In this document: piece after piece, positions 2,112 to 18,700 of the stretch
Layout of the letters: the number at the start of each line of letters is the position of its first letter
Numbering within the stretch: the first letter of the stretch is position 1
Source: a virus
Length of the DNA stretch: 48,675 nucleotides
Strand: one strand, 5' to 3'
IMG/VR virus record: IMGVR_UViG_3300021368_001402
Coordinates: 1-48,675 of that record
The notes under the pieces: model-generated
Told to the model about the DNA's origin: nothing
Database searches by the model: none
What the model saw: only the letters and a program-made list of their open reading frames with translations
Position numbers and translations under genes: made by a program

Positions 2112-2912
2112 TTATCCGATCATATCCATTGGTGGGATTGCGTACTTGCTAAGAACTTCAGATTCAATCTTCTCAATCTCTGCAAGTGCGTCTGTGTAGA
2201 TTTCTCTACCGTTAAGTGTTACACCGCCAGGTAGTTGAACGTTGTTATACTTGATCAAGTTCATACCCCACTGTCTCTTCATTAGAGCAGTGGCATACTT
2301 TTTGACAAACATATCGTTGTTCATCTCTGTAGCATCTGTAGGATCATTGAGACGATGACACTCAATAAGAACATTGGTTCCTTCTTTGAGGAAGTCTTTA
2401 TCAATATCTAAGTACAGACGATCACGGCGTGCTGTAAATCTAAACTGCTGGAAAGATCCATTGTTTAGAACCATATCTAGAGTTTCTAGATATTGCTTAT
2501 TCATATAATAGTTGAGGATATCAAGTGATCCAAATGCATAGAGATCATTCAAGAACAACTGATACTCAACACCAAAAAGATTTGAACGGATTGAGTTACT
2601 AACAAGACCAAAAACTCTAGTAATACCAACTACATGATCTGGAATTGGAATATAGTTTGTAGCTTCCAACCAGTTAGTAGAACCTTCTGTAGTAGTTACA
2701 CTAGCAGCAAACCTTGTCTTATCGTCAGCAGTAATTTCGTGGTATAAGTAAGCACGCTCCATACCGTTGTAGCAGTTCTCTTGGAAGAACTGAAACGTGT
2801 CGTCAATTACGTTGTTGACCTGTTCGTCATCAATGTTAACTTGCAACACGGGTTCGCCAAGTTGCCTCTTGCAATATGTGATGAGTTCAGCTCTAGAACT
2901 TGGAGATGCCAT
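2112..2912 (-). CDS. gp13: gp13, neck protein
   Basis: 266 residues from the ATG at 2912 (MASPSSRAELITYCKRQLGE). The frame is open to a TTG at 2921, but the family N-terminus MASP...ELI-YC-RQLG points to the ATG. The body (LNDLYAFGSLDILNYYMNKQ, KYATALMKRQWGMNLIKYNN and the end IPPMDMIG) is typical of T4-like gp13, which with gp14 forms the head-tail connector neck. T4 gp13 is about 309 residues. No canonical ribosome site sits at the usual distance. The nearest purine run (AAGGGA) lies in the 3' arm of the hairpin just upstream, about 13 nt from the ATG, so the hairpin could affect initiation. Confidence 0.9.
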   Translation of the reverse strand: MASPSSRAELITYCKRQLGEPVLQVNIDDEQVNNVIDDTFQFFQENCYNGMERAYLYHEITADDKTRFAASVTTTEGSTNWLEATNYIPIPDHVVGITRVFGLVSNSIRSNLFGVEYQLFLNDLYAFGSLDILNYYMNKQYLETLDMVLNNGSFQQFRFTARRDRLYLDIDKDFLKEGTNVLIECHRLNDPTDATEMNNDMFVKKYATALMKRQWGMNLIKYNNVQLPGGVTLNGREIYTDALAEIEKIESEVLSKYAIPPMDMIG

Positions 2913-2920: not shown

Positions 2921-2957
2921 AAAAATCCCTTCTTACCTATTTAGGAAGAAGGGATTT
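2921..2957 (-). terminator. Rho-independent terminator in front of gp13
   Basis: On the minus strand a perfect 12-bp stem (AAATCCCTTCTT pairing with AAGAAGGGATTT) encloses an 11-nt loop and runs into a U tract. The arms are 2946-2957 and 2923-2934. The U run faces the minus direction, so it would stop transcripts coming from the oxygenase and 65-residue genes. It lies between the 65-residue gene and gp13, immediately after a late-promoter-like octamer. Confidence 0.8.
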
Positions 2958-2959
2958 AG

Positions 2960-2967
2960 TATTTATT
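2960..2967 (-). promoter_or_regulatory. Late promoter-like octamer AATAAATA for the gp13-gp16 operon
   Basis: The minus strand reads AATAAATA, one base from the T4 late consensus TATAAATA and a match to NATAAATA, which I recall as the cyanophage form. It overlaps the stop of the 65-residue gene, as other late octamers in this window do with the preceding stop codon. Initiation a few bases downstream would fall inside the 5' arm of the terminator hairpin, which is unusual. Confidence 0.5.
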
Positions 2968-3160
2968 CTGCTGCAGGTGCTTCAGGTTCACCCTCTGGTG
3001 CTGTTCCTTCACCTTCCAGTAGTCCTAGAGTTTCAAGACCACCTTGTAGTTTAATCTTATACTCATTTGCTTTCTTGAGATTTTCTTCTAGTTCTGCAAT
3101 TTGCTTTTCTGTAGTAGCAATTTGCTCCTCAAAATTTTTCTTTAGTGCTGCTGGATCCAT
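2963..3160 (-). CDS. Small coiled-coil protein common in T4-like cyanophages
   Basis: 65 residues from the ATG at 3160 (MDPAALKKNFEEQIATTEKQ). Residues 1-45 are a charged heptad-rich helix (QIATTEKQIAELEENLKKA) ending in LQGGLETLGLLEGE. The tail is rich in Ala, Pro and Glu. A GTG three codons earlier is also in frame, but MDPAALKKNFEEQ is the start I associate with this cyanophage family. Its function is unknown to me. It sits between the oxygenase cassette and the neck operon, with a late octamer in front and a terminator behind, so it may be a separately expressed late gene. A structural or assembly-scaffold role is only a guess from the coiled coil. Confidence 0.75.
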   Translation of the reverse strand: MDPAALKKNFEEQIATTEKQIAELEENLKKANEYKIKLQGGLETLGLLEGEGTAPEGEPEAPAAE

Positions 3161-3187
3161 AGTAATCACATGAAATGGTGTGTGTAT

Positions 3188-3195
3188 TATTTATT
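3188..3195 (-). promoter_or_regulatory. Late promoter-like octamer AATAAATA before the 65-residue gene
   Basis: The minus strand reads CCTATAATAAATAATAC. The octamer AATAAATA lies about 28 nt before the ATG at 3160 and overlaps the stop of the upstream oxygenase gene. It has one mismatch to TATAAATA. No ribosome site is obvious between it and the start. Confidence 0.5.
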
Positions 3196-3721
3196 ATAGG
3201 TAATTAATGTTAACTACAACTCTCTTTCTTGGAGAAGTGCAAGTAACACCTGCGTGTTTAAAATGTGATGGGAAGATAACTAGTCTGTTTTTATTACCTT
3301 CTACTTTAGTTTCTACACCATCATCATCTCTAATCATAGTGTATCCATTAGTGCCATTTACATAGTAAATTGCTGTTTTTGTTTTATGTTCTTTGCCCCA
3401 AGAATCAATTACATCAGTATGCCATCCCGTAAGAATATTTTTTTCTGTGCAAAATGTTAGATTAGCTTTGACCCGAATCATAACACTAGCATTTAACTTA
3501 TAAAAAAGAGGTTCCAAACATCTATAATCTGGAGACAAAAATGTAGGATTCATATAAAACAAATGTGTCATTTGCTGATCATATTTTTTCTCACACTCTC
3601 TCTGTTCTTCGGCAACAATATTTTCATTCCAGTTCCAAAGAATGTCTTGTCCCATTAGATGACCTTCAATTGCAGCCATCTCCATTGGCGCTAAAGCATC
3701 ATCAATAATTTCAATAGTCAT
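3194..3721 (-). CDS. 2OG-Fe(II) oxygenase, third of three in tandem
   Basis: 175 residues. Near the middle is the iron-binding H-x-D pair (GWHTDV, H101 and D103). The distal histidine is in FPSHFKHAG (H156, with H153 as an alternative). The likely 2-oxoglutarate-binding arginine precedes the last strand (RKRVVVNINYL, R167). This order on a short double-stranded beta-helix is that of the prolyl-hydroxylase-like superfamily, which uses O2 and 2-oxoglutarate to hydroxylate a protein or small molecule. The substrate cannot be read from sequence. The start abuts the stop of the preceding oxygenase gene with no gap, so the two are probably translated together. Codon use looks visibly AT-rich beside the gp25 end of the window. 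Confidence 0.85.
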   Translation of the reverse strand: MTIEIIDDALAPMEMAAIEGHLMGQDILWNWNENIVAEEQRECEKKYDQQMTHLFYMNPTFLSPDYRCLEPLFYKLNASVMIRVKANLTFCTEKNILTGWHTDVIDSWGKEHKTKTAIYYVNGTNGYTMIRDDDGVETKVEGNKNRLVIFPSHFKHAGVTCTSPRKRVVVNINYL

Positions 3722-4237
3722 TTATATAAAGGTTGCGATAAGAACAATTCTGTTTCCAGACGATGGTGGTTCATTGTAATGTGGTCCAGCAAAAACAATT
3801 GGTAAATCTTCTACTGGTTTTGATTTATGTATTTCATCCTCATCACATACTACAGTAGAACCATCTTCAAAAGAACTGAGGTATACTAACAAATTTTTGT
3901 GTGGGAATGGATGATCTTCGTGTTTTGGACTTCCAACTTTAGTGTTAAATGTAAAGTTGACTGCCATACGATAAAACGTTTCAAACTCAACTTTATTGTA
4001 ATTTAAAATTTGTTCAGCAACATGCACAGACAAATCGGTATAGTTGCTACACTGTTTTGTAAATCTTGATCCTGGTCCTGGTCTTTGTAGTAGAGGGTGG
4101 CAAAACAATTCACAATCATCTTCTCCACAATCAATGTTCGTAGTTTTACTATACAACCACGGAAAATCTGATGAGGTTACAATGTTTTTAAATTGTTTAT
4201 AATCTACAGTAACAGGATTACTTAGATTGTAAATCAT
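3722..4237 (-). CDS. 2OG-Fe(II) oxygenase, second of three in tandem
   Basis: 171 residues. The metal site reads PKHEDHPFPHKNLLVYL (H106-x-D108), followed by a strand and turn with FEDGSTVV. The distal site is FAGPHYNEPPSSGNRIVLIA (H153, with R163 ten residues later as the expected 2-oxoglutarate anchor). All four key residues are present, so the enzyme is likely active. Residues 35-60 contain four cysteines (IDCGEDDCELFC, KQCSN), which may be structural. The start overlaps the stop of the gene before it as ATGA (4234-4237). The three enzymes share little beyond the active-site pattern, so they are better seen as different enzymes than as recent duplicates. Confidence 0.85.
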   Translation of the reverse strand: MIYNLSNPVTVDYKQFKNIVTSSDFPWLYSKTTNIDCGEDDCELFCHPLLQRPGPGSRFTKQCSNYTDLSVHVAEQILNYNKVEFETFYRMAVNFTFNTKVGSPKHEDHPFPHKNLLVYLSSFEDGSTVVCDEDEIHKSKPVEDLPIVFAGPHYNEPPSSGNRIVLIATFI

Positions 4238-4794
4238 TTAGATGGTTCACTTTCAATTGCTTTCTCTCTAATGATATCATATTGATCGGCAGTTGCAAAG
4301 GAAAAAGCAACTGAAGTTCTTAATTCATCAGTATGAGAGTTTGGAGGATCACCCCAATGCATCCACTTGGATGGAATCAACACACCCCAATTAGATGCAT
4401 AGTGATAATATTGATGTTTTTTTACTTCTGGATTTATAACATTAAATCCACCACCTAACCTAACATCCCAAAACTTATTAGTAAATAAAATAAAAGTCCA
4501 AACGTTATCTGTCCAAAAATCAACATGAGCAGCGCCATCTTGACCTGTTGTTTGTCCGTTGCAGTGAATTCTAACTAACTTAATACTTTCGTCAGTGTAT
4601 TCTTTTACTTTTTCTAATACAATATTTCCAGCTCTATTGAAAATTGGATTATCTACTTGATGCTGCGTCCAGAATCTTTTTGTTCCCTTCGCAGATTTGT
4701 TTGATAGTCTCCAACCTTTCTTAAATAATTCTTCCCCAATTTCATCAAATAAATCTTTTGGTAAAACATCACCAAATTCAATAGGTTCATTCAT
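4234..4794 (-). CDS. 2OG-Fe(II) oxygenase, first of three in tandem
   Basis: 186 residues. The metal site is GAAHVDFWTD (H90-x-D92). The strand GVLIPSKWMHWGDPP carries the distal H146, and R159 lies in ELRTSVAFSF. The pattern HVD...H...R with a following beta strand identifies a 2OG-Fe(II) dioxygenase of the cyanophage small-oxygenase type. A TNKFWDVRLGGGF segment between the two halves matches the usual glycine turn. The gene begins 1 nt after the third adhesin paralogue and ends in an ATGA overlap with the next oxygenase, so adhesins and enzymes appear to share one transcript. The substrate is unknown. Modification of a virion protein or of a host component are both possible. Confidence 0.87.
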   Translation of the reverse strand: MNEPIEFGDVLPKDLFDEIGEELFKKGWRLSNKSAKGTKRFWTQHQVDNPIFNRAGNIVLEKVKEYTDESIKLVRIHCNGQTTGQDGAAHVDFWTDNVWTFILFTNKFWDVRLGGGFNVINPEVKKHQYYHYASNWGVLIPSKWMHWGDPPNSHTDELRTSVAFSFATADQYDIIREKAIESEPSK

Positions 4795-4795
4795 A

Positions 4796-5884
4796 TTATT
4801 TCACAAGTAGATAAGTATATCCGTTAATTCTGTTATTAATAGCTGGGTTAAAATAAGGTCCGAATCCAGAACCACCACCAGATCCTGTATAATATTTGTG
4901 GAAAATTGGCAGAATCATCGCATCTGTAAGTAATCCTGATGGAGATCCGTTTGAATTATTAAATCCACCACCAGTATTATACCTAGAAAAAGTAGTTCTT
5001 GTCCAGACATAAACACAAGATTCATTATTATTAGAGAACGCATTCATCAGTCTTTGGATATTGCCATTCAAATCCCTAATCCAAGTGGTGTGTCCATTAC
5101 TAAGACCACTAGTATTATAAGAATTCCATGAAGTATTGGAGTTGCCAGAACTATTTCTATCTGAGTCAGAATCAACACCAATCCATGGAGTCTCTGACGA
5201 TAGAACAGAAATTGATGATGCAATTGCTCTTATCTGATCATCAGCAAAATGACTGCATGTAGCGTGGTTATAATAAAAATATGGATACCATGCATACATG
5301 TTACTACTGTTATCAGACGGAGCATAAGATCCACTGACACTAGTTTCTAATTGACCATAGTTTGCGTTATCAGTAAGTCCAAAAAGAGATCTGACATTTT
5401 GTGATCCTTGACCTAAACCAATATCCACATTCTGTGTATATGATTGTTTCATGATGTCATTATCTGACATGTTATATCCAGCACCACCAAACGTATATTT
5501 TGAGTTTCCTGTTCCACCAGGATAATTTTGTGGAGTAATTACATACCAAGGACCACCAGCAGCATCAAAGTCAACTAAGACTTTGAACGGCATGATGTTG
5601 CTTCCTTGACCTGCTGTAGTCCACAGAACTTGTTGTCCCGAATAAGCTCCAGCAACTTCACTTAAACTATCAAATGCTGATGTAGGATTACTTCCTTTTT
5701 TAGTTCCAGCAATTTGTTTCCACTGATTGACAGCATAATATTCTAAAGCTTTATCTTCTGTATTAAATCTAAAATATCCAGGCTGCGGGGTTGATGGTCT
5801 CTCTGCTGTTGTTCCAACAGGAAGTTTCATGGCTCCAGTGTCGCCACCTACCGTTACAAAGAGATTAGCTTGTACTGTGCTCAT
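4796..5884 (-). CDS. Adhesin-like virion protein, paralogue 3 of 3
   Basis: 362 residues. The N-terminus (MSTVQANLFVTVGGDTGAMK, then PVGTTAERPSTPQPGYFRFN) is a phage fibre-type attachment segment ending in LEYYAVNQW. The body shares landmarks with the two upstream genes: SAFDSLSEVAGAYSG, LWTTAGQG, DFDAAGGPWYV, FYYNHAT, DSDSD, WIRDLNGNIQR, and the tail MILPIFHKYYTGSGGGSGFG. It is the most divergent of the three. The C-terminus NRINGYTYLLVK replaces the NNR-VFL ending of the others. The domain after residue 70 faintly recalls fibrinogen-related or intelectin-like lectins (SAF...GLY...GGPWY). It probably serves as a receptor-binding tip. That role is inferred from composition, N-terminus and position. 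Confidence 0.7.
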   Translation of the reverse strand: MSTVQANLFVTVGGDTGAMKLPVGTTAERPSTPQPGYFRFNTEDKALEYYAVNQWKQIAGTKKGSNPTSAFDSLSEVAGAYSGQQVLWTTAGQGSNIMPFKVLVDFDAAGGPWYVITPQNYPGGTGNSKYTFGGAGYNMSDNDIMKQSYTQNVDIGLGQGSQNVRSLFGLTDNANYGQLETSVSGSYAPSDNSSNMYAWYPYFYYNHATCSHFADDQIRAIASSISVLSSETPWIGVDSDSDRNSSGNSNTSWNSYNTSGLSNGHTTWIRDLNGNIQRLMNAFSNNNESCVYVWTRTTFSRYNTGGGFNNSNGSPSGLLTDAMILPIFHKYYTGSGGGSGFGPYFNPAINNRINGYTYLLVK

Positions 5885-5888
5885 GACT

Positions 5889-6980
5889 TTATTTGAATAA
5901 AAATACTACTCTGTTGTTCTTTCTGCCAATGTTTGAATTATAGTAGGCACCAAATGCAGCACCGCCGCCCGATCCCGTATAACCAAACCATTGTGCTGGT
6001 AGAATCATCTTACTATTTAACAAACCATATGGTTCAGCACCAACACCAGCTTCCTCACCATCAATATAATTTCTAACTCTTTGGAATGTATTTTCTGTCC
6101 AAAGGTATGCTTGTCCATTATTTGATGGATCTGATTGTCCTACACATGCCATCTGTGTATTTCCATCTACATCACGAATATACACAATATGTGCATATCC
6201 TGTTCCACTTTCAGCATAACGATCCCAAGGTCTTTCCCAACCAATTTGAGTTTGTTGGTTACCATCAGAGTCATAATCAGAACCAACAAAAGGAGTTGCT
6301 GGACACAACTTACTAATAATATTTCTCAATGCATTTAATTGTCCAGTTGAGAAATTGGAATTAGTTGCGTGGTTGTAGTAATTAATATTTCTAACACTTG
6401 TAGTACCACCAGAAGATCCTGTTGTTACTTCTCCTGTTACCGTAATACCCTCACCTTGAGTAGCAGTAACACTGTGCCCATACAAAGAAGGAAAGTTTTG
6501 TGGTCCATATCCAACATTTACATTTTCATTATATGCACCTTTGAATCCATCATTTGTAGCACTGTTGGTGACATGACACATATCATTATTCATACCACCA
6601 CTAGTAATACCATCTGGGAATGCAAAAGAAGCTTCAAACCAAGGTCCACCAACAACATCAAAATTTACACTAATCTGGAATGGAGAAACTTGTCCACCAG
6701 CGGTAGTCCATAAATTCTGAGTGCCAGTATAAAGACCTTCTACTTCATGTAAATATCCAAATGCGGAAGATGAAGTAGATCCATCAGCACCTCCAGTACC
6801 GAAACTGGACCATGCACTATTTGCATATAACTCAATTCCTCCAGTGGTCTCATTGTAACGAAGACCAGCTTGGGGTAAATTACTTACTGGTTTTTCATTT
6901 TCCTGACCCTTAGGGAGTCCTATAGCACCCGTTGATGCTGAACCAGCACTATAAAAATTATCTGCTTCTACTCTACTCAT
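5889..6980 (-). CDS. Adhesin-like virion protein, paralogue 2 of 3
   Basis: 363 residues. It has the same plan as its neighbours: a fibre-type N-terminal segment (MSRVEADNFYSAGSASTGAI ... LRYNETTGGIELYANSAW), a linker rich in Gly, Ser and Ala, then the shared body (SAFGYLHEVEGLY, QNLWTTAGG, VVGGPWFEA, INYYNHATNSNF, YDSDGN, YIRDVDGNTQM) and the C-terminal YTGSGGGAAFGAYY plus NNRVVFLFK. AGGTAA lies about 6 nt before the ATG as a ribosome site. Only 5 nt separate it from paralogue 1 and 4 nt from paralogue 3. The central region (residues 125-200) is not alignable by eye between copies, which suggests a variable surface. It is probably a virion-exposed binding protein. The ligand is unknown. Confidence 0.7.
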   Translation of the reverse strand: MSRVEADNFYSAGSASTGAIGLPKGQENEKPVSNLPQAGLRYNETTGGIELYANSAWSSFGTGGADGSTSSSAFGYLHEVEGLYTGTQNLWTTAGGQVSPFQISVNFDVVGGPWFEASFAFPDGITSGGMNNDMCHVTNSATNDGFKGAYNENVNVGYGPQNFPSLYGHSVTATQGEGITVTGEVTTGSSGGTTSVRNINYYNHATNSNFSTGQLNALRNIISKLCPATPFVGSDYDSDGNQQTQIGWERPWDRYAESGTGYAHIVYIRDVDGNTQMACVGQSDPSNNGQAYLWTENTFQRVRNYIDGEEAGVGAEPYGLLNSKMILPAQWFGYTGSGGGAAFGAYYNSNIGRKNNRVVFLFK

Positions 6981-6985
6981 TTTTA

Positions 6986-8092
6986 TTACCTACAGAGAAA
7001 TACAGCACGGTTATTGATTTTGCCTACGGCACCACTGAAATAAGTTCCAAATGCACTACCACCACCTGATCCAGTATATCCTTTAATTTCATTTGGAATA
7101 ATTAAAGCATTAGTTTTCAATCCTTGAGGATCTCCAACTGATTGTGCCCAACCCCAGTTGTAAGGAATAGAAGTTCTGGAGTATTGATTGTGAGTCCAGA
7201 AACCGCAAAAACCATTGTTATCAGAAGATTCAAAACCATTACTGGTTCTTTGTGCTTGACCATTTTTATCTTTGATCCAGTTGCAATGTCCATAACCTAG
7301 AGTTGTTTCATCATTGTCAACTGTCCAATCACCAACACTACCTGAAGCATTACCATCACTATCAGCTGTAAATGAATAGTGTGGCGTCAAATGAGATAAC
7401 TGAGTAACGGTGTCTCTTAAAGCATTTAATTGACCATTGGTAAAATCACCATTTGTTGCGTGGTTGTAGTAATTAATACCAACATATCCACTGTTTCCAG
7501 CTCCACCATTGGTTTGGTTATATCCAGAAGTGCCAGAACCACCAATTCCTGCCATATCTTCTCTATTTCTTTCGGCATTTGCCATCTGCCAACCATATTG
7601 ATTGCCAGATCTAGAGAAGTGATGATGAACGAAGTCATCGTGGATATTTTTTAAGGCACTTGAAGTTGTAGTATTATATGCCCATGACCACAATGTATCA
7701 TTAACTTCATTAAATCCGTATGTTGGAAATCTGAAACTTAAAACATACCAAGGACCGCCATGATCAAAACAGATGGGCATTTGAAATGCATTGACATTTC
7801 CACCAACAGTGGTCCACAAATTATGTGTTCCATTGTCGTACAATCCGACAATATCTTCTAAATTTGCAAAAGCGTTTGCTGATGTAGATCCATCTGCTCC
7901 ACCAGCAGCGCCAGAAGAAAGTTTATTCCAAGCACCAGAATAATAAATTTCAATGGCACCAATATCAATGTTGTATCTTGCAAATCCTTCCTGAGCAGGG
8001 CTGGGTCTCTGTGCAGTAGTTCCAGTAGGGAAACCTAAAACACCAGTAGACCCACCCGTGGAAGTAAAGATATCAGCTTTTACAGCTCCCAT
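6986..8092 (-). CDS. Adhesin-like virion protein, paralogue 1 of 3
   Basis: 368 residues. The N-terminal 60 (MGAVKADIFTSTGGSTGVLG, then TGTTAQRPSPAQEGFARYN) follow the short attachment motif common at the start of phage fibre and tip proteins. Shared body landmarks are SANAFANLEDIVGLY, NLWTTVGG, CFDHGGPWYVLSF, INYYNHATNGDF, ADSDGN, WIKDKNGQAQR and YTGSGGGSAFGTYF, ending NNRAVFLCR. AAGGAA sits about 6 nt before the ATG, and a perfect late promoter lies about 25 nt upstream, so this gene opens the adhesin and oxygenase unit. Cysteines are few (FCGF, GHCN, LCR). The DSDGN loop could bind calcium. It is likely displayed on the virion for host binding. Whether it trimerises cannot be seen. Confidence 0.7.
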   Translation of the reverse strand: MGAVKADIFTSTGGSTGVLGFPTGTTAQRPSPAQEGFARYNIDIGAIEIYYSGAWNKLSSGAAGGADGSTSANAFANLEDIVGLYDNGTHNLWTTVGGNVNAFQMPICFDHGGPWYVLSFRFPTYGFNEVNDTLWSWAYNTTTSSALKNIHDDFVHHHFSRSGNQYGWQMANAERNREDMAGIGGSGTSGYNQTNGGAGNSGYVGINYYNHATNGDFTNGQLNALRDTVTQLSHLTPHYSFTADSDGNASGSVGDWTVDNDETTLGYGHCNWIKDKNGQAQRTSNGFESSDNNGFCGFWTHNQYSRTSIPYNWGWAQSVGDPQGLKTNALIIPNEIKGYTGSGGGSAFGTYFSGAVGKINNRAVFLCR

Positions 8093-8116: not shown

Positions 8117-8124
8117 TATTTATA
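8117..8124 (-). promoter_or_regulatory. Late promoter TATAAATA for the adhesin-oxygenase unit
   Basis: The minus strand carries an exact TATAAATA, the T4 late promoter consensus. It overlaps the stop codon of the giant fibre gene and lies about 25 nt before paralogue 1. No terminator separates it from the seven genes down to the hairpin at 2921-2957, apart from a second late octamer at 3188. Confidence 0.75.
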
Positions 8125-11100
8125 ACACGACCCATACACCACCAGATTGTACGGTTACCACAGCAGCACCAGTAACTTCAATAGGTCCAGTAGACATACA
8201 TCTATCATTAGAACTGATAGTTAGACTTTCAGAAACGGTATTGCTGTTTCTCTTGACAATTCCTTTGGTGTCAATATATTGTTTTTCTCCATTTGCTTCT
8301 AATACATCATCGCATTGTCCGCTAGTGAAGGTATTACCTTTGATATTGACATTACCAGAAATTTCTAATGTGTCTGTTGGATCAGCAACATTAATACCTA
8401 CTTTAGATAGTCTATAGATATCATCTTGGTTAGAAGCTTCTGTCCATCTAGAGGTAACAAATTCTGCATTATTCTGGAAGAACTGACCATTTAAGTTCAT
8501 ATCTCCCTGAACATTCAGGATATAATCTCTAGCAACATTAGGTGTGACAGTAGTGTCTGTACCGTTGAAAGTGTTAGTATTAATACCAACTCTGTTGTTG
8601 GTGCCTTGAATTGCGAGTGCTGGAGGTAATGAATTAGGAGTCGCAAGACTCTTCCAATCATCACTACCATTAGTTTCAGATGCATAGATTTCAAATAGAT
8701 CTGCACCACCACCAATATTAGATCCTAATCTGAATCCTCTACCGCCACCAGCTCCAGATCCGCCACCTCTAAATTGTAGATCTGCTTCTTGGTTTGCGGT
8801 TCCTTTAGCAATTCTTACACCGCTTAATGCGTGTGTAACATCGCTATAAAGATTTTGCCATCTTACACTATCACTACCTAGATCTTGATCGCTATCAGTA
8901 CCAGGAAGAACATTTCCGTCATTACTAATTTTGAGTCTTTCAGCAGAAGTAGCATTAGCTGTTCTAGTTCTGATAATTAATTCACCAACATTAGCACCTG
9001 TTCTATGTGCTGTAATACCCCACTGAGCAGCAGCAGAAGCACCATGTTGTAGAATGATACCTGCTTCACCACCATTTACTTGATTGAATACACTTGATTG
9101 ATATAGTGTTGATTGTGAAGATAGTGCTAGGTTAGACTGGAAGTTGAGGGAACCAGAAGCACTGTAAACATTAAACTTGACTGCGTTAGCATCTGCAGTC
9201 TGACCAATGTTAACTCTATCATTAGTGGAGTTGACATAGAGAGTTCCACTATCAACTAGAAGATCGGCACCAAGAGTTGTATTTCCACCAACATCCAAAC
9301 TACCAGTTCCTTGAATATTGATATTGTTATTTCCAGTGATGGTTAAACCACCAGTCATTGTATCACCAGTCTTCAACACGTTAAGTGAAGCAGCACCAGT
9401 TAAGGAAGCAGTGATGGTTCCAGCAGAGAAATTACCACTGGTGTCTCTCATTACAGCAGACTTAAGTCCAGCAGTTGAGACTACATTAGAAGAGTTGAAT
9501 CCAACATTACCTGCGTTCCAAATAATGTTATTGTTGACTTTAAGTTCGTTTTCGTTAACGACTTTAAACTCAAGAGTACCAGATCCTTCGGTAGCGTTAC
9601 CACCATCTGCAATAATAGCAGCATTGTAAGTGGCATCTCCATTATTATCTACTGCTTGTGCTTGAGAAGAGTTGAAATAGATGTATGGTTGAGTAGCAGC
9701 AATACCATCATTTCTTCCAAGTCTCAGGAAACCAGTTCCAGAAGCATTACCCAGTTCTGCATATTGAACAGTATTATCATCATAAATTTCCCAATGCTCA
9801 AATTCTCTTTCATCACCTGCATATCCGAGATAGATAGCAGCATTGATATTTCCACCAGAAGAAAGTCTTCCGATTAACATCGTATAGGTATTAGAAGAAT
9901 CATTTTGATCAATATCTTGATCAGTTGCAGTAATTGTAAAGTCGCCAACACTAATCTTATTGACATCAAACATGTCAATTGTTTTGTTAGCTTCAAAATC
10001 TCCACCAGGAGAAATATCTAGATTTTGTCTTACCAGAATTCTATAGAATGTTTCTGCTCCAGCATAAGATTTAACTTCAATCTTATCTCTAAACGCAGTA
10101 GAACTTCTCCATGTTGGTAGTCTAGTATCAAAGATTTCATTCTTCTTAATATTCCAACCATCTTGATACCATACACCTTGCTTATTATCAAGTTTGTCAG
10201 CATCTAGACCTGAGTCAATACCCATGTTTCCAGAGTTCCAAACTTCATACCAAGAACCGTAAGAAGTTACAGCATCACCAGAACCACGGAAGTAAATTCT
10301 ATCATCATTAGCAAATGCAAGCTGTCTTACACCACCAAATGTAGCATCACCACCAGACTCACCATTACGGAGAGTCATGACTAAATGCTTAGCAGAGTTA
10401 GATGATCCAGTATCTACGCTTGGGAAAGCTGATAGTAGACCATTAGAACTGTTAAACAGAGTCTGTAGTGTTATACCTTGTACTGCATCACTTGGACCTG
10501 GGTTAGCATTAGCGTTACTAGTACCAGTGTCTAGACGAAGTGTATTAGTAGATCTACCACTAATATCAATACTATATGTTCCACTAGCAAGTTTGTCTGG
10601 ATTAATACTGCTATCAACGAAGAAGGCACCATTGAGGTAGTAATTACCTTGCTGACCATCTAGCAAGTCAGCGTCAAGACCACTATCTGGACCCATCTTA
10701 ATGGATACAGATCCATTTCCTTCATCGCCAATGTTAAACTGAGACTTCTTAAATCTAGCAACACCAATGGTTCCAAAGAGATCCTGGGAAATTGTTAGAT
10801 CAGAAACTCTTTGAACGTCTAGTGCGATATTAGCAAACTGTTTCTGTGTGGTTGCTACTTTTGCAAGTAAAACTAAGTTAGAACCAGCTCCAATAACAGT
10901 TGGGTTAGGAGTAACTTGGAAATCTGCAGTGTATCCAGAACCAGCATTGGTTACAGTACATGTAGTGACTTGACCAGATTGACCATTTTCACCAACAATA
11001 ATATTGACTCTTAGGTTATTGCCATTTGTTCCTGCAGGTGCATCTAGAGGAATATCAAAATATTGACCATCAGTAAATCCTGTTCCAGGATTTGCAATAA

Positions 11101-14100
11101 CAACCGAATCAATAAATTCTCCACCAGTATTAGTAGAATCAAAGATTAGTGGAGAAGTACCACGATTAAATTCAATGACTGTTCCAGCAGCAATAGTGGA
11201 TGTAATTGGATTATTGAAAGAAACTGTTGTTAGATTACCAACAACCGTTACACCGTTTACAGTGGTATCATTAGCAATACCACCAACATTAGCTACAATG
11301 TCATGCCCTTTAAGAACGTCTGATAGTCCTTGGAAAATAAAGGAACTTGCACCTGTAGATGCTTGTGCATATAGTCTTGCAAAATATCTTGTTTCTGCAC
11401 CCTTGAGAGATTGAACAACCTTTGCGTATCTTTGGTCTCCTCTTAAGAATGTGAAAGAGTTTGCTGCTTCAGAACCTAGTAAGGTCGTTGAAATGAGACC
11501 AGGACCAGTAAGAGATCCAACACCAACGGAATCACTACTTAGTGATACCCAGTTACTTATAGTAGACGATGAGGTATTAACAACTCTAGTAATATTAACA
11601 GTATTTGCAGATGGAGAATCACTATCATCAAATGTATCAGTGTCAAGCATTTTGATATTGTTGACAATGTTGCCATACAATCTATTTTCAATAAATGCAT
11701 CTGCAGTAGCTGCTGATCCTGCTCCTGCAGGAGCACTGATGTTAACTGATGGTTGAGTAGTGTATCCCTTACCACCAATAAATCCAGCATTTTCTGTAAT
11801 TGTAATAGTAACAACTTCACCGTTTGCAATTGTAGCAACAGCTGTTGCAGCAACTGCTCCAGTAGCAGGGTTTCCTCCAGTAATTTGAACCGTTGGAGCA
11901 ACGGTATATCCAGAACCACCATCGGTAATATTGATAGTGTGAACTACACCCTCTCTGTATTCGGTTGCCTGAATTCTACCTGTAGATGGTGTTCCTGTAT
12001 ATACATCACCAACATTAAACACAAGACTAGAATCAACAGCAAATCCTAGATATAGACTTGTTAGGTCATTGTTCAGAATGAATGATGTGGAAGTATCCTG
12101 TTGGATAGCGATATCACCAGCAAGTGCTCCTTCCAGTGCTAGTCTTTCTGCTTGATCAGCAACAGTAAAGACACTAAATGGTCTTAGTGCTGGAATTTGA
12201 TCAAGAGAGATCTTACCAGAGTCAGTAAGTTCAACCAATGCTCTAGGAACTGCGTTCGTAGAATATGGTTTATTGATGTAAGGTCCAAGAGAGTTTGTGA
12301 TATAATCTTTAACTGCCTTTTGAGTAGGTAGTTTGGAGTCGCTGGAGTTAGCACCACCAAGTGTGTTGCTATTATCAAATCCAGTAACAACAACGTCACC
12401 ACCTTTCAGTTTCAAGAATTCAACTTCCGAGATCGTAACCGTTCCAGTAAATGTGATGTTACCAGTTCTGTTTTCAATTCTTGCAAATGTACCAACCTTG
12501 AAGTCACCTAGTTCGTCAGTACCAGAGACATATACACGTCCATAGTTTTCAGAAACTTGTTCGTTTGCCTCAACTTTAGTACCACCGTTTTCAGGTAGAG
12601 CAAGGTAGTTAGTACCAGAACCTGCAAATTCCCAGGTGTGGGAAGAAGAGTTGACGATAGAAGGTCTGTGTAGTCTTAAGGTTGCGTTTGCTGCGTTAGA
12701 AGGAGTAAGAGCATTTTGTAGTGCAGTTAGACCAGAAATAGTAGCTCCATCAGACTCTCTAATCAGAGTAAGACCATTTCCTACACCATCATCAATGGTA
12801 AGTGTTGCAGAGAAAGGAGGTCCAACAGTGACTGCACTTACAGCATCAATAAAGAATTCTTTATCTGGATCTGCATTTCTGTAACCATCAAACTTACAGA
12901 TGTAATGCTCAAGTGGTTCTCTACCGATACCACCAATAGTAAGAGTAGTTCTACCAGTTGGCGTTTGAGATACAACGTTAACTGTAGCTACATCAAATTC
13001 ATATGGATCTCTACGGAAACCTGTTCCTCTTAGAGCATATGTACCAAAGTTGGTAGCAGAGTTAGTGATAGATGCATAACCACCAGACTCACAAAGGACA
13101 CCATCTTGACAGAAGATAACAAAGACAGAAACTAACTGTGTATAACCATCTTCAATAACCTTATAACCTGTACCACCAAAAGATACAATCGTGAATGCTG
13201 CCGCAACCATAGATTTACCTTGGTTGGGGAAGGATGCTGTTCCGTCTGGTTCTAGACCAGGGAAAGGACAGTTAGGTTGCTTAACTTTTGTACCATCAAT
13301 TAGAGCACCACTACCACCTCTGAATGAGATAACAGAAGCATTCTGTGTGTATGGCGAAGCTTCAATAATTGGGAAGTCATCATATCTACCACGAACCGCC
13401 ATGCGGTTGTTATTGAAATCATTAATATAACTATCTGGATATGTGATAATATCATTGGTGTCATATAATGTTCCAAACGTTTGCGTTGTAGAACCAGCAA
13501 CAGTTGTACCATCTAAAATGTCTTCAAACAAGTCTAATGCTGTATTAATAGTAGATTCTACACCTGCACAAATTGATCCAGAAGTAGAAGAGTAAGCACT
13601 TACAGAATCAGCATTTGTTCTTACAAAGGTGTGTGCAGATTGTGGAGAATGAGATACCGCATTGGTAGAAGCACTTACAAATGTGTGTGCAGATTGTGGT
13701 TCATGCTTAACAGCATTTGGTTGAGCACTTACAAATGTATGAACAGAACCAGAAGCAGATCCAGCACCACCTACATTAACTGTAAACGTACCAGTTTGGC
13801 GCTCAAGACCATTAGCAGATGCACTTACAAATGTATGAGCACCTTGATAAGAAGATCCACCAACGTTAATGTCAAATGTATTTGTAGTGACATTAGAGAT
13901 TTCTAACCAGCGACCACTTGGATAATCGTAACCAGCACGAGGATATGTCTTCTGTACTGTATTGCCATCTAAATCACATGTATATGTTAGAGATCCATCA
14001 GCAACCTTGACATAATCTCCATTTGCAAATCCATGACCAGCAATAGTCAGTGTTACAATACCAGTCGTTGCATCATATGGAGCATCGGTAACAGTATGAG

Positions 14101-17100
14101 ATGTAGTGCCAACAGCGGTAATTGCTAGAGAAGCACCAGATGCGGGGTCAGTAGAACGTGGATATGTTTCATTTGAAACATTACCATCAATATCGCAAGT
14201 AAATGTAAGTGAATTATCTTCAATTACAACGCCACGTCCAACACCAAGACCATGTTGTCCAACAGTAAGAACTAGATCTCCTGTGGAAGGATTGTAGTTA
14301 GCTCCAGTTGGTTGGAAATACTTATTAGGACCAGAAATACCAGCATTGACTGTGATTGAGGTTGCTGTCTTTCCTGTGATAGGCATGGACCTACCAGCAA
14401 ATGGATCAATACCAGGGCGAGGATAAGTCTTAGTAGACTGGTTTCCATCCATCACACAAGTGAAGGACAATGAATTGTCAGCAATAACAACACCCTCACC
14501 AACGTCTAGAGTATGACTGCCGATTTCTAATACCAATGCTCCCGTTGAAGGATTATATGTTGCAGCACTTGGTGTAAACTGTACGTTAGGACCAGAAGCA
14601 CCAACGTTAACAGTGACTGTATTTGTTGTTGTTCCAGTAATTACAAGGTTATTACCATATGCTGCTTGACCGTCTCCTGGTAAAGCATGTTCAGTTTTAT
14701 TGCCATCCATTGTGCATGTAAACACAAAGGATTCTGGTTGTAAACGAATAGTATTGGATGTTGTTAATCCATGACCATTCATGGTCAATACAAAGTCACC
14801 AGTCGCAGTATCGTAAGTAGCATTAGATGGAGTGAAGATACCAATAGGAGCAGATGCATTGACATCAGTTAGAATACTCCAATCTTCAAACTTAGGAATT
14901 GGGGAAGTAAGTGTAATTGGACCATAAATGATCTTAGTTCCATTAGCAATGGCACTTACAAAAGTATGTGCATCAGTATTGCTTCCTGCTGCACCAACAT
15001 TTAAAGTAATAGTGGTATTACCGCCACTTGATACAACGTTTGAAATTAAGAAACTTTGTCCGAAGTTAGTATCAGTTCTGTATGGACTTGCATCATTTCC
15101 ACCACCAGCATGGGCGCAACTGTATGTAATTGCTCCTTCAGCAAAAGCAATTCTATCCGAGTTAGCTACAGGTAATACTGCTGGATCTGGAATGGTTACC
15201 GTCATTGCTCCTGTAGTAGGAACATATGTAGATCCAGTTGGAGTGGTTTGTAATACGTTTCCATCAGACCAGTTACGCATTGCGTAAATGGCATATAGTT
15301 TTACTCTCTCAAATGCATAAATTGTTTGTGGTCTTTGTGCTTCGGAAATGCCAGAAAGAGATGTTCCACTGAAGTATGACTCTGCTGTAGAAACAACACC
15401 ATGGTTTCCACCAAGAACTAAGTCTCTTACTAAACCTTCTAATACAATCTTGATATCTCTACGACACTTTCTTTGATGTAAATCACTAAGATTTAAAGTT
15501 GGATAAGCAATTTCAGTATCAATAAGTGCTTGATCTGCAATAAGATCGGCATTTCTAGCAATTAGATATGCAGCATCAAGATATGTTCCATTTTGATTAT
15601 TGGTAATGATATCTACCCAAAGGAATGATAGAGTATCAATAGCAGACCTTACATCATCACAAGCAGGTGTTCCTGCAGTTGTATTGATAATAGTAGTGTC
15701 AGTATATCTTGGAGTAGTAGCGTGCTTTGTTACATACAGAGGATCAGCAGTTGTTCTGTTCTTGATCCTCCAATTACACATTGCATAAATTGCTAGTTCT
15801 CTAGCATATTCAATAGCGCGTACATTTTGGATAATTTCATCTTCAATGAAAGCAATCTTACCACCGACAATATATTTTTTAGCAGCTTCAATAACATTGT
15901 GGTTAGATCCAAATTCAAGGTCTCTTACTAGAGCATTCAAGAAGTGGATAATATCTTGCTTGCACTGTGTATCACCATCTGTACCAGTGTTGTTTCCAGA
16001 AGTTGGAGAACTATATGCTGGATAAATTTTCTGACCAGCACTACAGGAAATAAGAATGTCTGCTAATTGAACAGTATCATCCTCAGACAATGCAGCAACG
16101 GCAGCTGCGGTGGTTGTAATTGTAGCGACACCTGTTACTGAAGTGTCGTAAACAAAACCACTAATAGCATAAGAAGTTCCACCAAACGTTACTGTACCAC
16201 CACTAACATAAGTATTTTCGTGGTCTAGAGGACCCAAGTAAATATCAAATGTGTTGTTAACAGTATCAATGTTGTATACTGAATAGTAATCAGACTTAAA
16301 TTGATCGTTGATAATACCAATTACTTCTTCAGCAATGTAATCTCTATTATTTCTAATTAACTGACAAGCATCTTGATATCTTCTCTCTACAGGAGTCGCA
16401 AGTGGGAACTTGTTTGGTGAGTTAAGTAGAGATAGAGTAATAGATTTTGAGTAAGACTTTACGACAGCAAATTCACTTGGTTGGAAATTTGCTGTTGATA
16501 GAGAAGGAACTTTCTTAGGAATAACAAAACGTCTTGCTCTTCCATCAGCATCTTCTAGAACTTTGTAAATTCTTTGTTTTCCGTTTAAGAAAGATAGATC
16601 AGGATTTGAAGTAGGAAGATTTTCAAGAATAATTTCTTGACCTTCTTTAAATTCGTGAGTATTAGTTCTACCTACAAGAGCACTGGTATATACAACAATA
16701 CCACCAAGATCTTCTGCGCTACCAAACTGCTGCTCTTGGAAACCACCTGTTGCGATACTAGGGTCTCCCTGCAAGGAGAAGTCTAATCTAGTAATTGGTA
16801 GGGTGGATGTAACGTCTTCGTCATACGAAACAACTTCACCTTCAGCTCTAATTGACTTTAAATTAACCGTGTCAATTGTATTAGTTGTTGGGGAAGCAGA
16901 GTTAATTGTAATAGTCTCTGTCAAGGTTGAGTTCCAACCCTGTGCTCCTAAAATAGGAGTGAAGGTAACATCCCAATAAGTTGGAGCATTACCGTTATTG
17001 ATAACAGAAACTTGATAGTATCCTTGGGTGAACGATGAATTATCAGTATCATCCAGATAAACAACATTACCTACAGGAAGATCTGTAGTTGGATCTGTTG

Positions 17101-18700
17101 TAAATCTTAGAGTATTTTCCCCAGCAGTTCCACTAATGGTTTGTGTTAATGCACCACCTGTAGCAGCAGAAGAAATATAACTATATTGGTCACCTTCAAT
17201 AAAGGAACCAGCAGTCAACTGTACATCAATAGTACCAGCAACATATGCATTGGAACCAGTAGTTGAGCTGAAGTTTACATCAAATACATTTGCTCTAGCA
17301 CCAGTGTTCAATCCTAAAATTTGAACACCCGATGCGAGAAGTGCTAATCCTGTATTGTTCTGGAAACTAATTCTAAATCTGTCTGGTCCAAAAATTTGAT
17401 GACCAATTGGAAACTCAACACCAAAGTCTCCATTTACTTCGTTGTCAATAATGATTCTTTGCTTGTCATCAAAGACCATAGCAAAGTCCCAAGTTCCAGT
17501 AGGATCTCCGTTAGAGTCAACCTTATCTCTATAGGTAACTCCAGTAACGTAGTTCTTATCACCAAACTTAAAGATGTGTTTGCCAACGTTTCCTGGTCTG
17601 ATAATTACCAGACGAAGGTTATCACCAACAACCGAGCAATCAGGTGGTAGAGAGATTGGGTTATCTTCTACATAATCACCACCAGAGATAATCAGTGTTT
17701 CTTTAACACCAGGAGTAGACCATGCGATCTGTGCCGCTTTCTTAATAGTACGGACTGGGTTAACTGCCGAACGACCATCGTTCAGGTCAGAACCAATCTG
17801 CTGAGAGACATAAACACGACCACCAACGTCATTTGTTGCTAGGTTAAGGACGTATTCTGTAGTTGCAATCTTGTCTGATCTATCACCCAAGATTGGAGTA
17901 ATAGAACGTGGGAAGGTTCCTGCTTCTCCCGTATTTAAATAATTAAAATCTGTGGCGTTATTTACTCTGAAACCAATATGCTTGAATTGAACCTCGCCAT
18001 TAGTTTCAACTCCATCCTTATGCTCTGGTGCCAAAGCTCCAGTGGTTCCTGTATTTAATGCTTGATATACATTAGAAACAGAATATCTATACTGTCCTTT
18101 CTGGACAATAACATTGGCAGCCCATGGCGTGCCAGTGCCGTTCATAAACGTTTTTAAGTTTGGTGCTCTCAGATTCAAATCTGGAGTAACAAAGTTTTCA
18201 ACATCAATATTCAGAATTCTTGCAGTATCCGAAATGATAGATGTTGAAGTTCTAATAGCACCATTAATGTCTAATTCAAATTCAACAGTATCAAGGAAAG
18301 CAGTTGCAGAAGCTCCAGAACCATTTCCTCCTGTAAGGACTACATTTGGCGCAGAAGTATATCCACTACCAGGATCATTAACAACAACAGATGTAACTTT
18401 ACCATTAAAGATACTAGCTGATGCTTGCGCTTGAGTTCCTCCAGCAGGGGGTGGATCAATTTCTACAAGTGGAGCTTGATTATATCCAGATCCTTGGTTG
18501 TCAATGTCAATATTATTGACTTTTTGACCACTTCTATTGATACCTACACGAGGGAGACCACTAACAGGGTCTTTCTGAAGTCGCATGATTTCAACTTCAT
18601 CTACCCCAGTACCAACTCTGATAGTTGCTTCATTATCACCGATAAGTTTAGGGTTGACGCCCCTAATTTTTTCTTTATCGGAATTAATATGAAAACTCAT
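8120..18700 (-). CDS. Giant mosaic tail fibre or baseplate-attached structural protein
   Basis: 3526 residues. In order: an N-terminal segment (MSFHINSDKEKIRGVNPKLI); two GSGY beta modules (residues 60-140); a pectate-lyase-like beta-helix start at about 290-430 (VYVSQQIGSDLNDGRSA, GNVGKHIFKFGDKNYVTGVT); two helical modules at about 773-1145 (DACQLI..., DAAYLIARNADLI..., AMRNW); a block of tandem beta repeats at about 1155-1700; the end of the helical module (CAGVEST, about 1710); more beta-helix (ISFRGGSGALIDGTKVKQ, YASITNSATNFGTYALRGTG); further GSGY modules; then GLDADLLDGQQGNYY and GLDADKLDNKQG shaft repeats and a fibre-like C-terminus (GTDSDQDLGSDSVRWQNL) ending TVQSGGVWVVL. The composition is that of a long trimeric fibre of cyanomyoviruses. 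Which T4 protein it replaces (gp10, gp12 or gp34-37) cannot be decided from sequence alone. Confidence 0.8.
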   Translation of the reverse strand: MSFHINSDKEKIRGVNPKLIGDNEATIRVGTGVDEVEIMRLQKDPVSGLPRVGINRSGQKVNNIDIDNQGSGYNQAPLVEIDPPPAGGTQAQASASIFNGKVTSVVVNDPGSGYTSAPNVVLTGGNGSGASATAFLDTVEFELDINGAIRTSTSIISDTARILNIDVENFVTPDLNLRAPNLKTFMNGTGTPWAANVIVQKGQYRYSVSNVYQALNTGTTGALAPEHKDGVETNGEVQFKHIGFRVNNATDFNYLNTGEAGTFPRSITPILGDRSDKIATTEYVLNLATNDVGGRVYVSQQIGSDLNDGRSAVNPVRTIKKAAQIAWSTPGVKETLIISGGDYVEDNPISLPPDCSVVGDNLRLVIIRPGNVGKHIFKFGDKNYVTGVTYRDKVDSNGDPTGTWDFAMVFDDKQRIIIDNEVNGDFGVEFPIGHQIFGPDRFRISFQNNTGLALLASGVQILGLNTGARANVFDVNFSSTTGSNAYVAGTIDVQLTAGSFIEGDQYSYISSAATGGALTQTISGTAGENTLRFTTDPTTDLPVGNVVYLDDTDNSSFTQGYYQVSVINNGNAPTYWDVTFTPILGAQGWNSTLTETITINSASPTTNTIDTVNLKSIRAEGEVVSYDEDVTSTLPITRLDFSLQGDPSIATGGFQEQQFGSAEDLGGIVVYTSALVGRTNTHEFKEGQEIILENLPTSNPDLSFLNGKQRIYKVLEDADGRARRFVIPKKVPSLSTANFQPSEFAVVKSYSKSITLSLLNSPNKFPLATPVERRYQDACQLIRNNRDYIAEEVIGIINDQFKSDYYSVYNIDTVNNTFDIYLGPLDHENTYVSGGTVTFGGTSYAISGFVYDTSVTGVATITTTAAAVAALSEDDTVQLADILISCSAGQKIYPAYSSPTSGNNTGTDGDTQCKQDIIHFLNALVRDLEFGSNHNVIEAAKKYIVGGKIAFIEDEIIQNVRAIEYARELAIYAMCNWRIKNRTTADPLYVTKHATTPRYTDTTIINTTAGTPACDDVRSAIDTLSFLWVDIITNNQNGTYLDAAYLIARNADLIADQALIDTEIAYPTLNLSDLHQRKCRRDIKIVLEGLVRDLVLGGNHGVVSTAESYFSGTSLSGISEAQRPQTIYAFERVKLYAIYAMRNWSDGNVLQTTPTGSTYVPTTGAMTVTIPDPAVLPVANSDRIAFAEGAITYSCAHAGGGNDASPYRTDTNFGQSFLISNVVSSGGNTTITLNVGAAGSNTDAHTFVSAIANGTKIIYGPITLTSPIPKFEDWSILTDVNASAPIGIFTPSNATYDTATGDFVLTMNGHGLTTSNTIRLQPESFVFTCTMDGNKTEHALPGDGQAAYGNNLVITGTTTNTVTVNVGASGPNVQFTPSAATYNPSTGALVLEIGSHTLDVGEGVVIADNSLSFTCVMDGNQSTKTYPRPGIDPFAGRSMPITGKTATSITVNAGISGPNKYFQPTGANYNPSTGDLVLTVGQHGLGVGRGVVIEDNSLTFTCDIDGNVSNETYPRSTDPASGASLAITAVGTTSHTVTDAPYDATTGIVTLTIAGHGFANGDYVKVADGSLTYTCDLDGNTVQKTYPRAGYDYPSGRWLEISNVTTNTFDINVGGSSYQGAHTFVSASANGLERQTGTFTVNVGGAGSASGSVHTFVSAQPNAVKHEPQSAHTFVSASTNAVSHSPQSAHTFVRTNADSVSAYSSTSGSICAGVESTINTALDLFEDILDGTTVAGSTTQTFGTLYDTNDIITYPDSYINDFNNNRMAVRGRYDDFPIIEASPYTQNASVISFRGGSGALIDGTKVKQPNCPFPGLEPDGTASFPNQGKSMVAAAFTIVSFGGTGYKVIEDGYTQLVSVFVIFCQDGVLCESGGYASITNSATNFGTYALRGTGFRRDPYEFDVATVNVVSQTPTGRTTLTIGGIGREPLEHYICKFDGYRNADPDKEFFIDAVSAVTVGPPFSATLTIDDGVGNGLTLIRESDGATISGLTALQNALTPSNAANATLRLHRPSIVNSSSHTWEFAGSGTNYLALPENGGTKVEANEQVSENYGRVYVSGTDELGDFKVGTFARIENRTGNITFTGTVTISEVEFLKLKGGDVVVTGFDNSNTLGGANSSDSKLPTQKAVKDYITNSLGPYINKPYSTNAVPRALVELTDSGKISLDQIPALRPFSVFTVADQAERLALEGALAGDIAIQQDTSTSFILNNDLTSLYLGFAVDSSLVFNVGDVYTGTPSTGRIQATEYREGVVHTINITDGGSGYTVAPTVQITGGNPATGAVAATAVATIANGEVVTITITENAGFIGGKGYTTQPSVNISAPAGAGSAATADAFIENRLYGNIVNNIKMLDTDTFDDSDSPSANTVNITRVVNTSSSTISNWVSLSSDSVGVGSLTGPGLISTTLLGSEAANSFTFLRGDQRYAKVVQSLKGAETRYFARLYAQASTGASSFIFQGLSDVLKGHDIVANVGGIANDTTVNGVTVVGNLTTVSFNNPITSTIAAGTVIEFNRGTSPLIFDSTNTGGEFIDSVVIANPGTGFTDGQYFDIPLDAPAGTNGNNLRVNIIVGENGQSGQVTTCTVTNAGSGYTADFQVTPNPTVIGAGSNLVLLAKVATTQKQFANIALDVQRVSDLTISQDLFGTIGVARFKKSQFNIGDEGNGSVSIKMGPDSGLDADLLDGQQGNYYLNGAFFVDSSINPDKLASGTYSIDISGRSTNTLRLDTGTSNANANPGPSDAVQGITLQTLFNSSNGLLSAFPSVDTGSSNSAKHLVMTLRNGESGGDATFGGVRQLAFANDDRIYFRGSGDAVTSYGSWYEVWNSGNMGIDSGLDADKLDNKQGVWYQDGWNIKKNEIFDTRLPTWRSSTAFRDKIEVKSYAGAETFYRILVRQNLDISPGGDFEANKTIDMFDVNKISVGDFTITATDQDIDQNDSSNTYTMLIGRLSSGGNINAAIYLGYAGDEREFEHWEIYDDNTVQYAELGNASGTGFLRLGRNDGIAATQPYIYFNSSQAQAVDNNGDATYNAAIIADGGNATEGSGTLEFKVVNENELKVNNNIIWNAGNVGFNSSNVVSTAGLKSAVMRDTSGNFSAGTITASLTGAASLNVLKTGDTMTGGLTITGNNNINIQGTGSLDVGGNTTLGADLLVDSGTLYVNSTNDRVNIGQTADANAVKFNVYSASGSLNFQSNLALSSQSTLYQSSVFNQVNGGEAGIILQHGASAAAQWGITAHRTGANVGELIIRTRTANATSAERLKISNDGNVLPGTDSDQDLGSDSVRWQNLYSDVTHALSGVRIAKGTANQEADLQFRGGGSGAGGGRGFRLGSNIGGGADLFEIYASETNGSDDWKSLATPNSLPPALAIQGTNNRVGINTNTFNGTDTTVTPNVARDYILNVQGDMNLNGQFFQNNAEFVTSRWTEASNQDDIYRLSKVGINVADPTDTLEISGNVNIKGNTFTSGQCDDVLEANGEKQYIDTKGIVKRNSNTVSESLTISSNDRCMSTGPIEVTGAAVVTVQSGGVWVVL
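13600..14860 (-). repeat. Tandem beta repeats inside the giant fibre
   Basis: About five units of 60-80 codons with the pattern YNPSTGDLVLTVGQHGL, then VIEDNSLTFTCDIDGN, then YPR..D..G..L.I. They are followed by at least four short HTFVSA-xxNA units, near-identical at DNA level around 13620-13700 and more diverged at 13730 and 13830. A further HTFVSA lies near 14960. Units are well conserved in protein and partly in DNA, so copy number may vary between relatives. Confidence 0.8.

Follow-up and report, generated by a model that had tools for sequence, protein, structure and literature searches.

The window analysed here is the whole of the virus record IMGVR_UViG_3300021368_001402, an IMG/VR fragment of 48,675 bases from a T4-like cyanophage, and it contains six adjoining minus-strand genes, which encode three adhesin-like proteins (A1 to A3) followed by three 2-oxoglutarate-Fe(II) (2OG) oxygenases (O1 to O3). 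Judged from gene sequence and placement, we lean towards reading these genes as a late adhesin-plus-hydroxylase module, the enzymes of which would modify proteins of the fibre or adhesin type in the course of assembly. The coupling of adhesins and oxygenases exceeds the sharing of a promoter. Few marine cyanophage genes without an assigned purpose are as numerous as those for 2OG oxygenases, which are usually filed as metabolic helpers; a defined subset tied to fibre or adhesin operons provides a concrete candidate substrate. If the reading is correct, phage receptor-binding proteins carry an enzyme-written modification, which bears on host range in the ocean and is relevant to phage proteomics, where residues of +16 Da often pass as accidental oxidation.

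The six genes form one tight unit (Table 1). An earlier interpretation made from the letters of this DNA (the sequence-only reading) had described six open reading frames (ORFs) with their borders and gaps, and the ORF calls, all on the minus strand, agree with it: A1 and A2 are separated by 5 nt, A2 and A3 by 4 nt, A3 and O1 by 1 nt and O2 and O3 by 0 nt, and the O1/O2 junction is an ATGA overlap. The description of A1 to A3 as tandem paralogues also holds (34-39% identity over the full length), as does the presence of H-x-D...H...R in every oxygenase (HVD in O1, HED in O2 and HTD in O3). Purifying selection acts on each of the six, the ratios of non-synonymous to synonymous substitution rates (dN/dS) being 0.09-0.19. 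The DNA from gp13 to gp16 is 85% identical to that of Synechococcus phage Sf-CH1b; the other matches of this DNA were Synechococcus, Prochlorococcus and further cyanophage records, all belonging to the Kyanoviridae wherever they are classified.

The perfect late promoter named in the sequence-only reading was recovered as an exact match to TATAAATA at the stop codon of the giant fibre gene. The frequency of this octamer in the window is that expected by chance (4 copies, 4.1 expected); all four copies lie on the coding strand about 25-45 nt upstream of the start of a structural gene, and in 12 related genomes 91 of 122 copies sit 15-70 nt upstream of an ORF start. The placement over the fibre stop codon is repeated in S-RSM4 (96886) and in a locus of another lineage, L100 (6715-6722). 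Transcription of A1 to O3 is thus probably late; a literature search on transcript timing returned nothing directly relevant.

The exact order A1-A2-A3-O1-O2-O3 was found in four other IMG/VR contigs, and a fifth holds the 3' part of the cassette (91-99% protein identity throughout). L100 is far more distant (its gp13 and gp14 are 42% and 31% identical to those of the window) and carries a cassette in the same order, composed of A1' (59% identity), A2' (59%), A3' (55%), O1' (64%) and O3' (42%), each of which is the best match of its counterpart in the window. A search for near-identical DNA of the cassette in phage records gave no match. In Sf-CH1b, the gp13 of which is 95% identical to that of the window, the corresponding position is occupied by a LamG-type protein, a glycine-rich protein and one oxygenase. 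With the gene order kept in L100 and the content swapped in Sf-CH1b, the adhesins, together with at least O1 and O3, appear to travel as a unit, as far as sequence comparison can tell.

The region between the giant fibre gene and gp13 (the slot) was sampled through 80 loci, which were fetched by gp13 and hence blind to slot content, and which are skewed to close relatives of the window. The sample comprises 42 complete slots including that of the window, with 35 distinct architectures. The slot is hypervariable and its contents are wholly different among related phages: ACG-2014i and ACG-2014e have a single 301-aa ORF and zero oxygenases, S-RSM4 has at least eight oxygenases. One to eight oxygenases are present in 25 of the 35 distinct slots, and none of the 35 has oxygenases without other ORFs of at least 150 aa. 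The oxygenase count correlates with the number of other ORFs (rho 0.52, p 0.0015) and with their total length (rho 0.58, p 0.0002), both over the 35 slots and uncorrected for shared ancestry. Oxygenases make up 63 of the 178 slot ORFs of at least 150 aa (about 35%), compared with 11% of the ORFs of 150-700 aa genome-wide. Tail-fibre or adhesin slots of T4-type phages are hypervariable, as in g37-g38. The present slot resembles those in that close relatives exchange the adhesin-like genes that lie where a giant fibre gene ends; it differs in that the swapped cassette adds putative modifying enzymes and adjoins gp13.

Placement across genomes was determined in 12 complete genomes, in which 138 oxygenase genes were mapped with phrog_274, PF13640 and PF13759 (137 in the size range considered; 5-23 copies per genome). 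A first iterated oxygenase hidden Markov model (HMM) drifted, since 42 of its 225 matches had no H-x-D and O2 was lost; this model was replaced by 15 cluster HMMs seeded from Pfam- or PHROG-positive genes. A simple pattern of the catalytic triad fits only 107 of 141 reference oxygenase genes, hence some of the genes counted as oxygenases may be degenerate or escape the pattern. Of the 137 oxygenases, 62 lie at most 8 kb downstream of an ORF of at least 840 aa, while 38.2 ± 4.8 are expected from size-matched genes (0 of 2000 permutations reached the observed value). No enrichment was found within 2 kb of a giant ORF (19 vs 14.6); the excess appears at 4-8 kb, which is expected where adhesins lie in between.

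A second fibre locus shows a recurrent gene order: fibre, oxygenase, phrog_4697 tail assembly chaperone, oxygenase and O1-type oxygenase. This order was found in S-CAM4, ACG-2014i, Syn1 and Sf-CH1b, and in S-RSM4 with one small ORF in between. The final oxygenase of all five operons falls in the O1 cluster, seven of the eight reference members of which are located at most 6.2 kb downstream of a giant ORF. Co-occurrence of adhesins and oxygenases, which the sequence-only reading had put forward as a check, thus came out in part: the cassette order is kept in L100 and oxygenases are enriched at fibre loci, whereas about half of the 2OG genes are elsewhere. For the superfamily, oxygenases occur roughly as often without adhesins as with them; this is not so for the O1 subfamily.

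These data also bear on hitch-hiking, i.e. on a slot which, as a recombination hot spot, gathers accessory genes, abundant oxygenases among them. The hypervariability of the slot agrees with this explanation, as do the copy number of 2OG genes and the half of them found elsewhere. We consider it improbable, given that oxygenases are enriched beyond size-matched genes and that it is weakened both by the conserved overlapping operon at the second fibre locus and by the cassette order retained in L100.

O1 to O3 are mutually very divergent (16-20% identity), and among them only O3 clears a Pfam cut-off for 2OG oxygenases. In the family alignment of O1, residues H90, D92, H146 and R159 are invariant; in that of O3, H101 and H156 are invariant and D103 is nearly so. 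In O2 and O3 an arginine follows the distal histidine, as expected for binding of 2-oxoglutarate. All three proteins are predicted enzymes, namely 2OG-Fe(II) oxygenases with intact active sites. A model of O1, built from the sequences of the window and of IMG/VR only, has a predicted local distance difference test (pLDDT) value of 86 and shows a double-stranded beta-helix fold with 524 PDB matches at E ≤ 0.001. The 50 fold matches listed by Foldseek are all 2OG oxygenases of the protein prolyl hydroxylase kind (PHD2, 8e-10; PPHD, 2e-8; 13-18% identity in the fold alignments). A profile of the O1 family searched against PDB matched OGFOD1 (1e-6), a putative hydroxylase, PHD2/EGLN1, prolyl 4-hydroxylases, the EF-Tu hydroxylase PPHD and TPA1, besides a few unrelated matches at weak E-values. 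O1 therefore resembles the prolyl-hydroxylase type in the predicted fold and in the profile comparison. It shares the double-stranded beta-helix and H-x-D...H...R with PHD2/EGLN1, OGFOD1 and the PPHD of Pseudomonas, which acts on EF-Tu, and differs from them by the low identity and by its 186 aa without extra domains. The search with O1 in bacterial genomes gave only relatives in Pseudomonas (27-30% identity; loci L244-L247) and no fibre context; in three of these four loci, small uncharacterised proteins follow the O1-like protein.

In the strongest rival explanation, the targets of the oxygenases are host proteins or host surface molecules, such as translation factors or envelope glycans, and only the late promoter is shared. 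It is supported by the closest solved relatives of O1, OGFOD1 and PPHD, which modify ribosomal or elongation factors, and many phage 2OG genes do lie outside fibre loci. A host target leaves unexplained why the enzymes are co-inherited with one type of adhesin, why they are interleaved with a fibre chaperone and why O1-type enzymes are nearly always situated at fibre loci; it is rated as unlikely, if less so than the other rivals.

The label 'DNA endonuclease V' (denV), widely copied for phrog_274, suggests DNA repair or modification as another function. Such a role for cyanophage 2OG genes is mentioned with reference to Weigele et al. 2007 in a passage of PMC3037559, and database labels repeat it. 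Examples of genes annotated in this way that carry 2OG residues and have no Pyr_excise domain are L113:3633-4148, L107:11013-11528, L109:12459-12989 and L108:12022-12606. No match to PF03013 (Pyr_excise) was found in O1 to O3 or in nine phrog_274-labelled or related proteins, and these nine have 2OG Pfam matches, one above the curated cut-off and the others below it. A true PF03013 gene is separate, single-copy and located elsewhere in 7 of 15 genomes. Because the 2OG triad, the 2OG Pfam matches, the absence of PF03013 and the true gene elsewhere contradict the label, endonuclease V was ruled out for phrog_274 in Kyanoviridae; by these sequence criteria the label is wrong in these phages and the genes are predicted oxygenases. 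As the O1 profile and model matches listed include protein hydroxylases and neither AlkB nor TET, a function in DNA repair or modification is hardly credible.

A1 to A3 may fairly be described, from the modelled fold, as trimeric fibre-tip or lectin-like proteins. An N-terminal module is common to the A proteins and to phage fibre or structural proteins; A1 and A3 match phrog_1325, phrog_2803, phrog_5621 and others, and a slot protein of S-CAM4 with the same N-terminus belongs to phrog_15727 ('virion structural protein'). The A proteins are presumed to be on the virion. The best PDB match of the A1 model (Foldseek) is weak, the procollagen C-propeptide trimer 5k31 (E 8.9e-3, prob 0.96); besides it there are a match to the tailspike TSP3 of CBA120 over 39 columns and, further down, lectin folds. 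Viral matches of A1 (BFVD) are cyanophage proteins, two of which are named 'Fibrillar collagen NC1' and 'Fibrinogen C-terminal'. The A proteins are read as being of the tail-fibre type, with a short N-terminal fibre module, a body like a lectin or a collagen propeptide and a glycine-rich C-terminus. The likeness to procollagen C-propeptide (COLFI/NC1) and fibrinogen-C-like domains consists of the weak fold match of A1; A1 to A3 differ in having no collagen repeats, and the template modelling score of A1 to the target is about 0.45 at best. Neither Pfam nor PDB sequence searches gave a match of the A proteins to COLFI or fibrillar collagen NC1. We infer the term 'adhesin', since no named adhesin family was matched by A1 to A3 in the Pfam, PHROG or PDB sequence searches. 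A tblastn search of A1 against phage records gave no match. When IMG/VR was scanned with the adhesin alignment, full-length relatives came solely from phages carrying the cassette, and the two remaining matches covered the N-terminal module only.

The following course of events is proposed. Late transcription of the gp55 type would start at the promoter on the fibre stop codon and give a single mRNA, from which the adhesins and then, from coupled start codons, the enzymes would be made. With Fe(II) and 2-oxoglutarate bound, O1 to O3 would hydroxylate side chains, as a first guess those of proline, in the adhesins or in the giant fibre encoded next to them, either ahead of assembly or in its course. 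Hydroxylation could alter fold, stability or receptor contact, and the cassette might be exchanged as 'adhesin plus hydroxylase'. A1 to A3 are presumed substrates here, and both the modified residue and a role in receptor binding are likewise presumed. Giant viruses encode collagen hydroxylases, which are comparable in that a virus supplies the 2OG hydroxylase that acts on a protein it encodes; enzyme and target are different, with collagen-like proteins there and lectin-like fibre proteins here. A literature search for fibre hydroxylation and collagen-C-terminal domains in phages gave nothing directly relevant.

Several observations weigh against such a module. At the level of the cassette, co-inheritance is based on two lineages and O2 is absent from the cassette of L100. 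The equal numbers of adhesins and oxygenases, which had been taken as suggestive of pairing, are coincidental: the ratios range over 0-8 : 0-7 across slots, and with O2 missing from L100 a one-to-one 3:3 pairing was rejected. Ten of the 35 distinct slots are free of oxygenases and S-WAM2 has the phrog_4697 fibre chaperone without oxygenases, so the enzymes are not obligatory. Across the 12 genomes, about 45% of the oxygenases are at fibre or structural loci and 55% away from them; in P-SSM2 (NC_006883), about eight oxygenase genes at 120-142 kb are far from giant structural ORFs, which is a counter-example. The statistics carry no correction for shared ancestry, and in the chance control ORF length stands in for 'fibre'. 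The dominance of PHD2 in the Foldseek list of O1 partly reflects the abundance of PHD2 entries in PDB. PDB sequence searches with O3 alone and with the alignment of its family gave chance matches only, so that O1 is the basis of the prolyl-hydroxylase reading. The AlphaFold2 (AF2) model of A1 is moderate (pLDDT 66, predicted template modelling score 0.67). Finally, three oxygenases of S-RIM2 lie beside the metabolic genes talC, nadE, hli and psbA.

The latter finding agrees with a role in auxiliary metabolism, in which the enzymes lower or sense 2-oxoglutarate and thereby tune NtcA and nitrogen metabolism. A 2OG/NtcA role was proposed for cyanophage 2OG genes by Sullivan et al. 2010 (in a passage of PMC3037559) and is repeated, in a passage of PMC9602691, for S-SCSM1 with its 24 copies. 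O1 to O3 belong to the same abundant superfamily of T4-like cyanophages treated in these passages, where the roles given are metabolic or DNA repair, whereas here a subset is tied to fibre or adhesin operons and to protein-hydroxylase relatives. In the accessible parts of the open-access literature on cyanophage 2OG genes no link to fibres was found; subscription journals were outside the search. A late promoter and a placement at fibre loci are not expected of metabolic enzymes, the many divergent copies suggest different substrates instead of one metabolite sink, and O1 matches protein hydroxylases; metabolism is thus a very improbable explanation for these genes.

For the adhesin-plus-hydroxylase reading, the suggestion that the oxygenases may be made late to modify the adhesins is supported in part, namely by co-inheritance, enrichment at fibre loci, the interleaving with a fibre chaperone and the sequence and predicted fold of O1; it is not supported as regards 3:3 pairing, and half of the 2OG genes elsewhere speak against a general form of it. 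A broader proposal is more tentative and somewhat doubtful: in T4-like cyanophages, interchangeable dedicated protein hydroxylases may finish receptor-binding proteins, host range may be partly enzyme-written, cassettes may be exchanged, and a substantial fraction of those marine-phage 2OG oxygenases that lack an explanation may be fibre-modifying and not metabolic.

The insertion of the six genes between the fibre gene and the neck operon was confirmed with one refinement: a near-promoter, the small phrog_580 gene and a terminator lie between the six-gene unit and gp13. A simple terminator scan overlooked the near-perfect hairpin of 12 bp with a U run that forms this strong terminator (z -5.8; 0 of 200 shuffles as strong). 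In L100, a homologue of phrog_580 likewise follows O3' directly, at 11142.

Table 1. Features of the six-gene unit and its borders in the window, and second fibre loci in reference genomes (positions of the latter refer to the genome named).
Feature	Position	Strand	Basis or remark
A1, adhesin/fibre-tip-like protein, 368 aa	6986..8092	-	ORF; L100 ortholog; AF2 and Foldseek; dN/dS 0.12-0.14
A2, A1 paralogue, 363 aa	5889..6980	-	ORF; L100 ortholog
A3, A1 paralogue, 362 aa	4796..5884	-	ORF; L100 ortholog
O1, predicted 2OG-Fe(II) oxygenase, prolyl-hydroxylase-like, 186 aa	4234..4794	-	phrog_274 1.2e-17; H90-x-D92...H146...R159
O2, predicted 2OG-Fe(II) oxygenase, 171 aa	3722..4237	-	phrog_274 2.5e-26; H-E-D...H...R; dN/dS 0.10-0.12
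O3, predicted 2OG-Fe(II) oxygenase, 175 aa	3194..3721	-	PF13640 1e-6; phrog_274 5.9e-41; H-T-D...H...R
T4-type late promoter TATAAATA	8117..8124	-	exact octamer; overlaps giant-fibre stop codon; 25 nt before A1
Possible next late promoter ATAAATA (one mismatch to TATAAATA)	3188..3194	-	sequence; precedes phrog_580 gene
Giant tail fibre gene, 3526 aa, upstream slot border	8120..18700	-	'tail fiber protein' in several phages, among them Sf-CH1b and S-RSM4
Small conserved gene phrog_580, GTG start, closes slot	2963..3169	-	phrog_580 1.7e-19
Intrinsic terminator, hairpin and U run, between phrog_580 and gp13	about 2921..2958	-	minimum free energy -20.1 kcal/mol
gp13 neck protein, downstream slot border	2112..2906	-	phrog_211 4.5e-45
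Second fibre locus, S-CAM4	35976-41527		
Second fibre locus, ACG-2014i	40880-47212		
Second fibre locus, Syn1	42153-48162		
Second fibre locus, Sf-CH1b	43136-47568		
Second fibre locus, S-RSM4	152458-159638		

Two further observations concern neighbouring genes. The cassette of L100 is adjoined by a pyridoxal-phosphate (PLP) aminotransferase-like protein (L100:11618-12820), which by eye resembles glutamate-1-semialdehyde aminomutase, HemL. In Syn9 (NC_008296, 30343-44788), two tryptophan halogenases are located between tail-fibre assembly genes and eight oxygenases; these halogenases might be further enzymes that modify fibre proteins.

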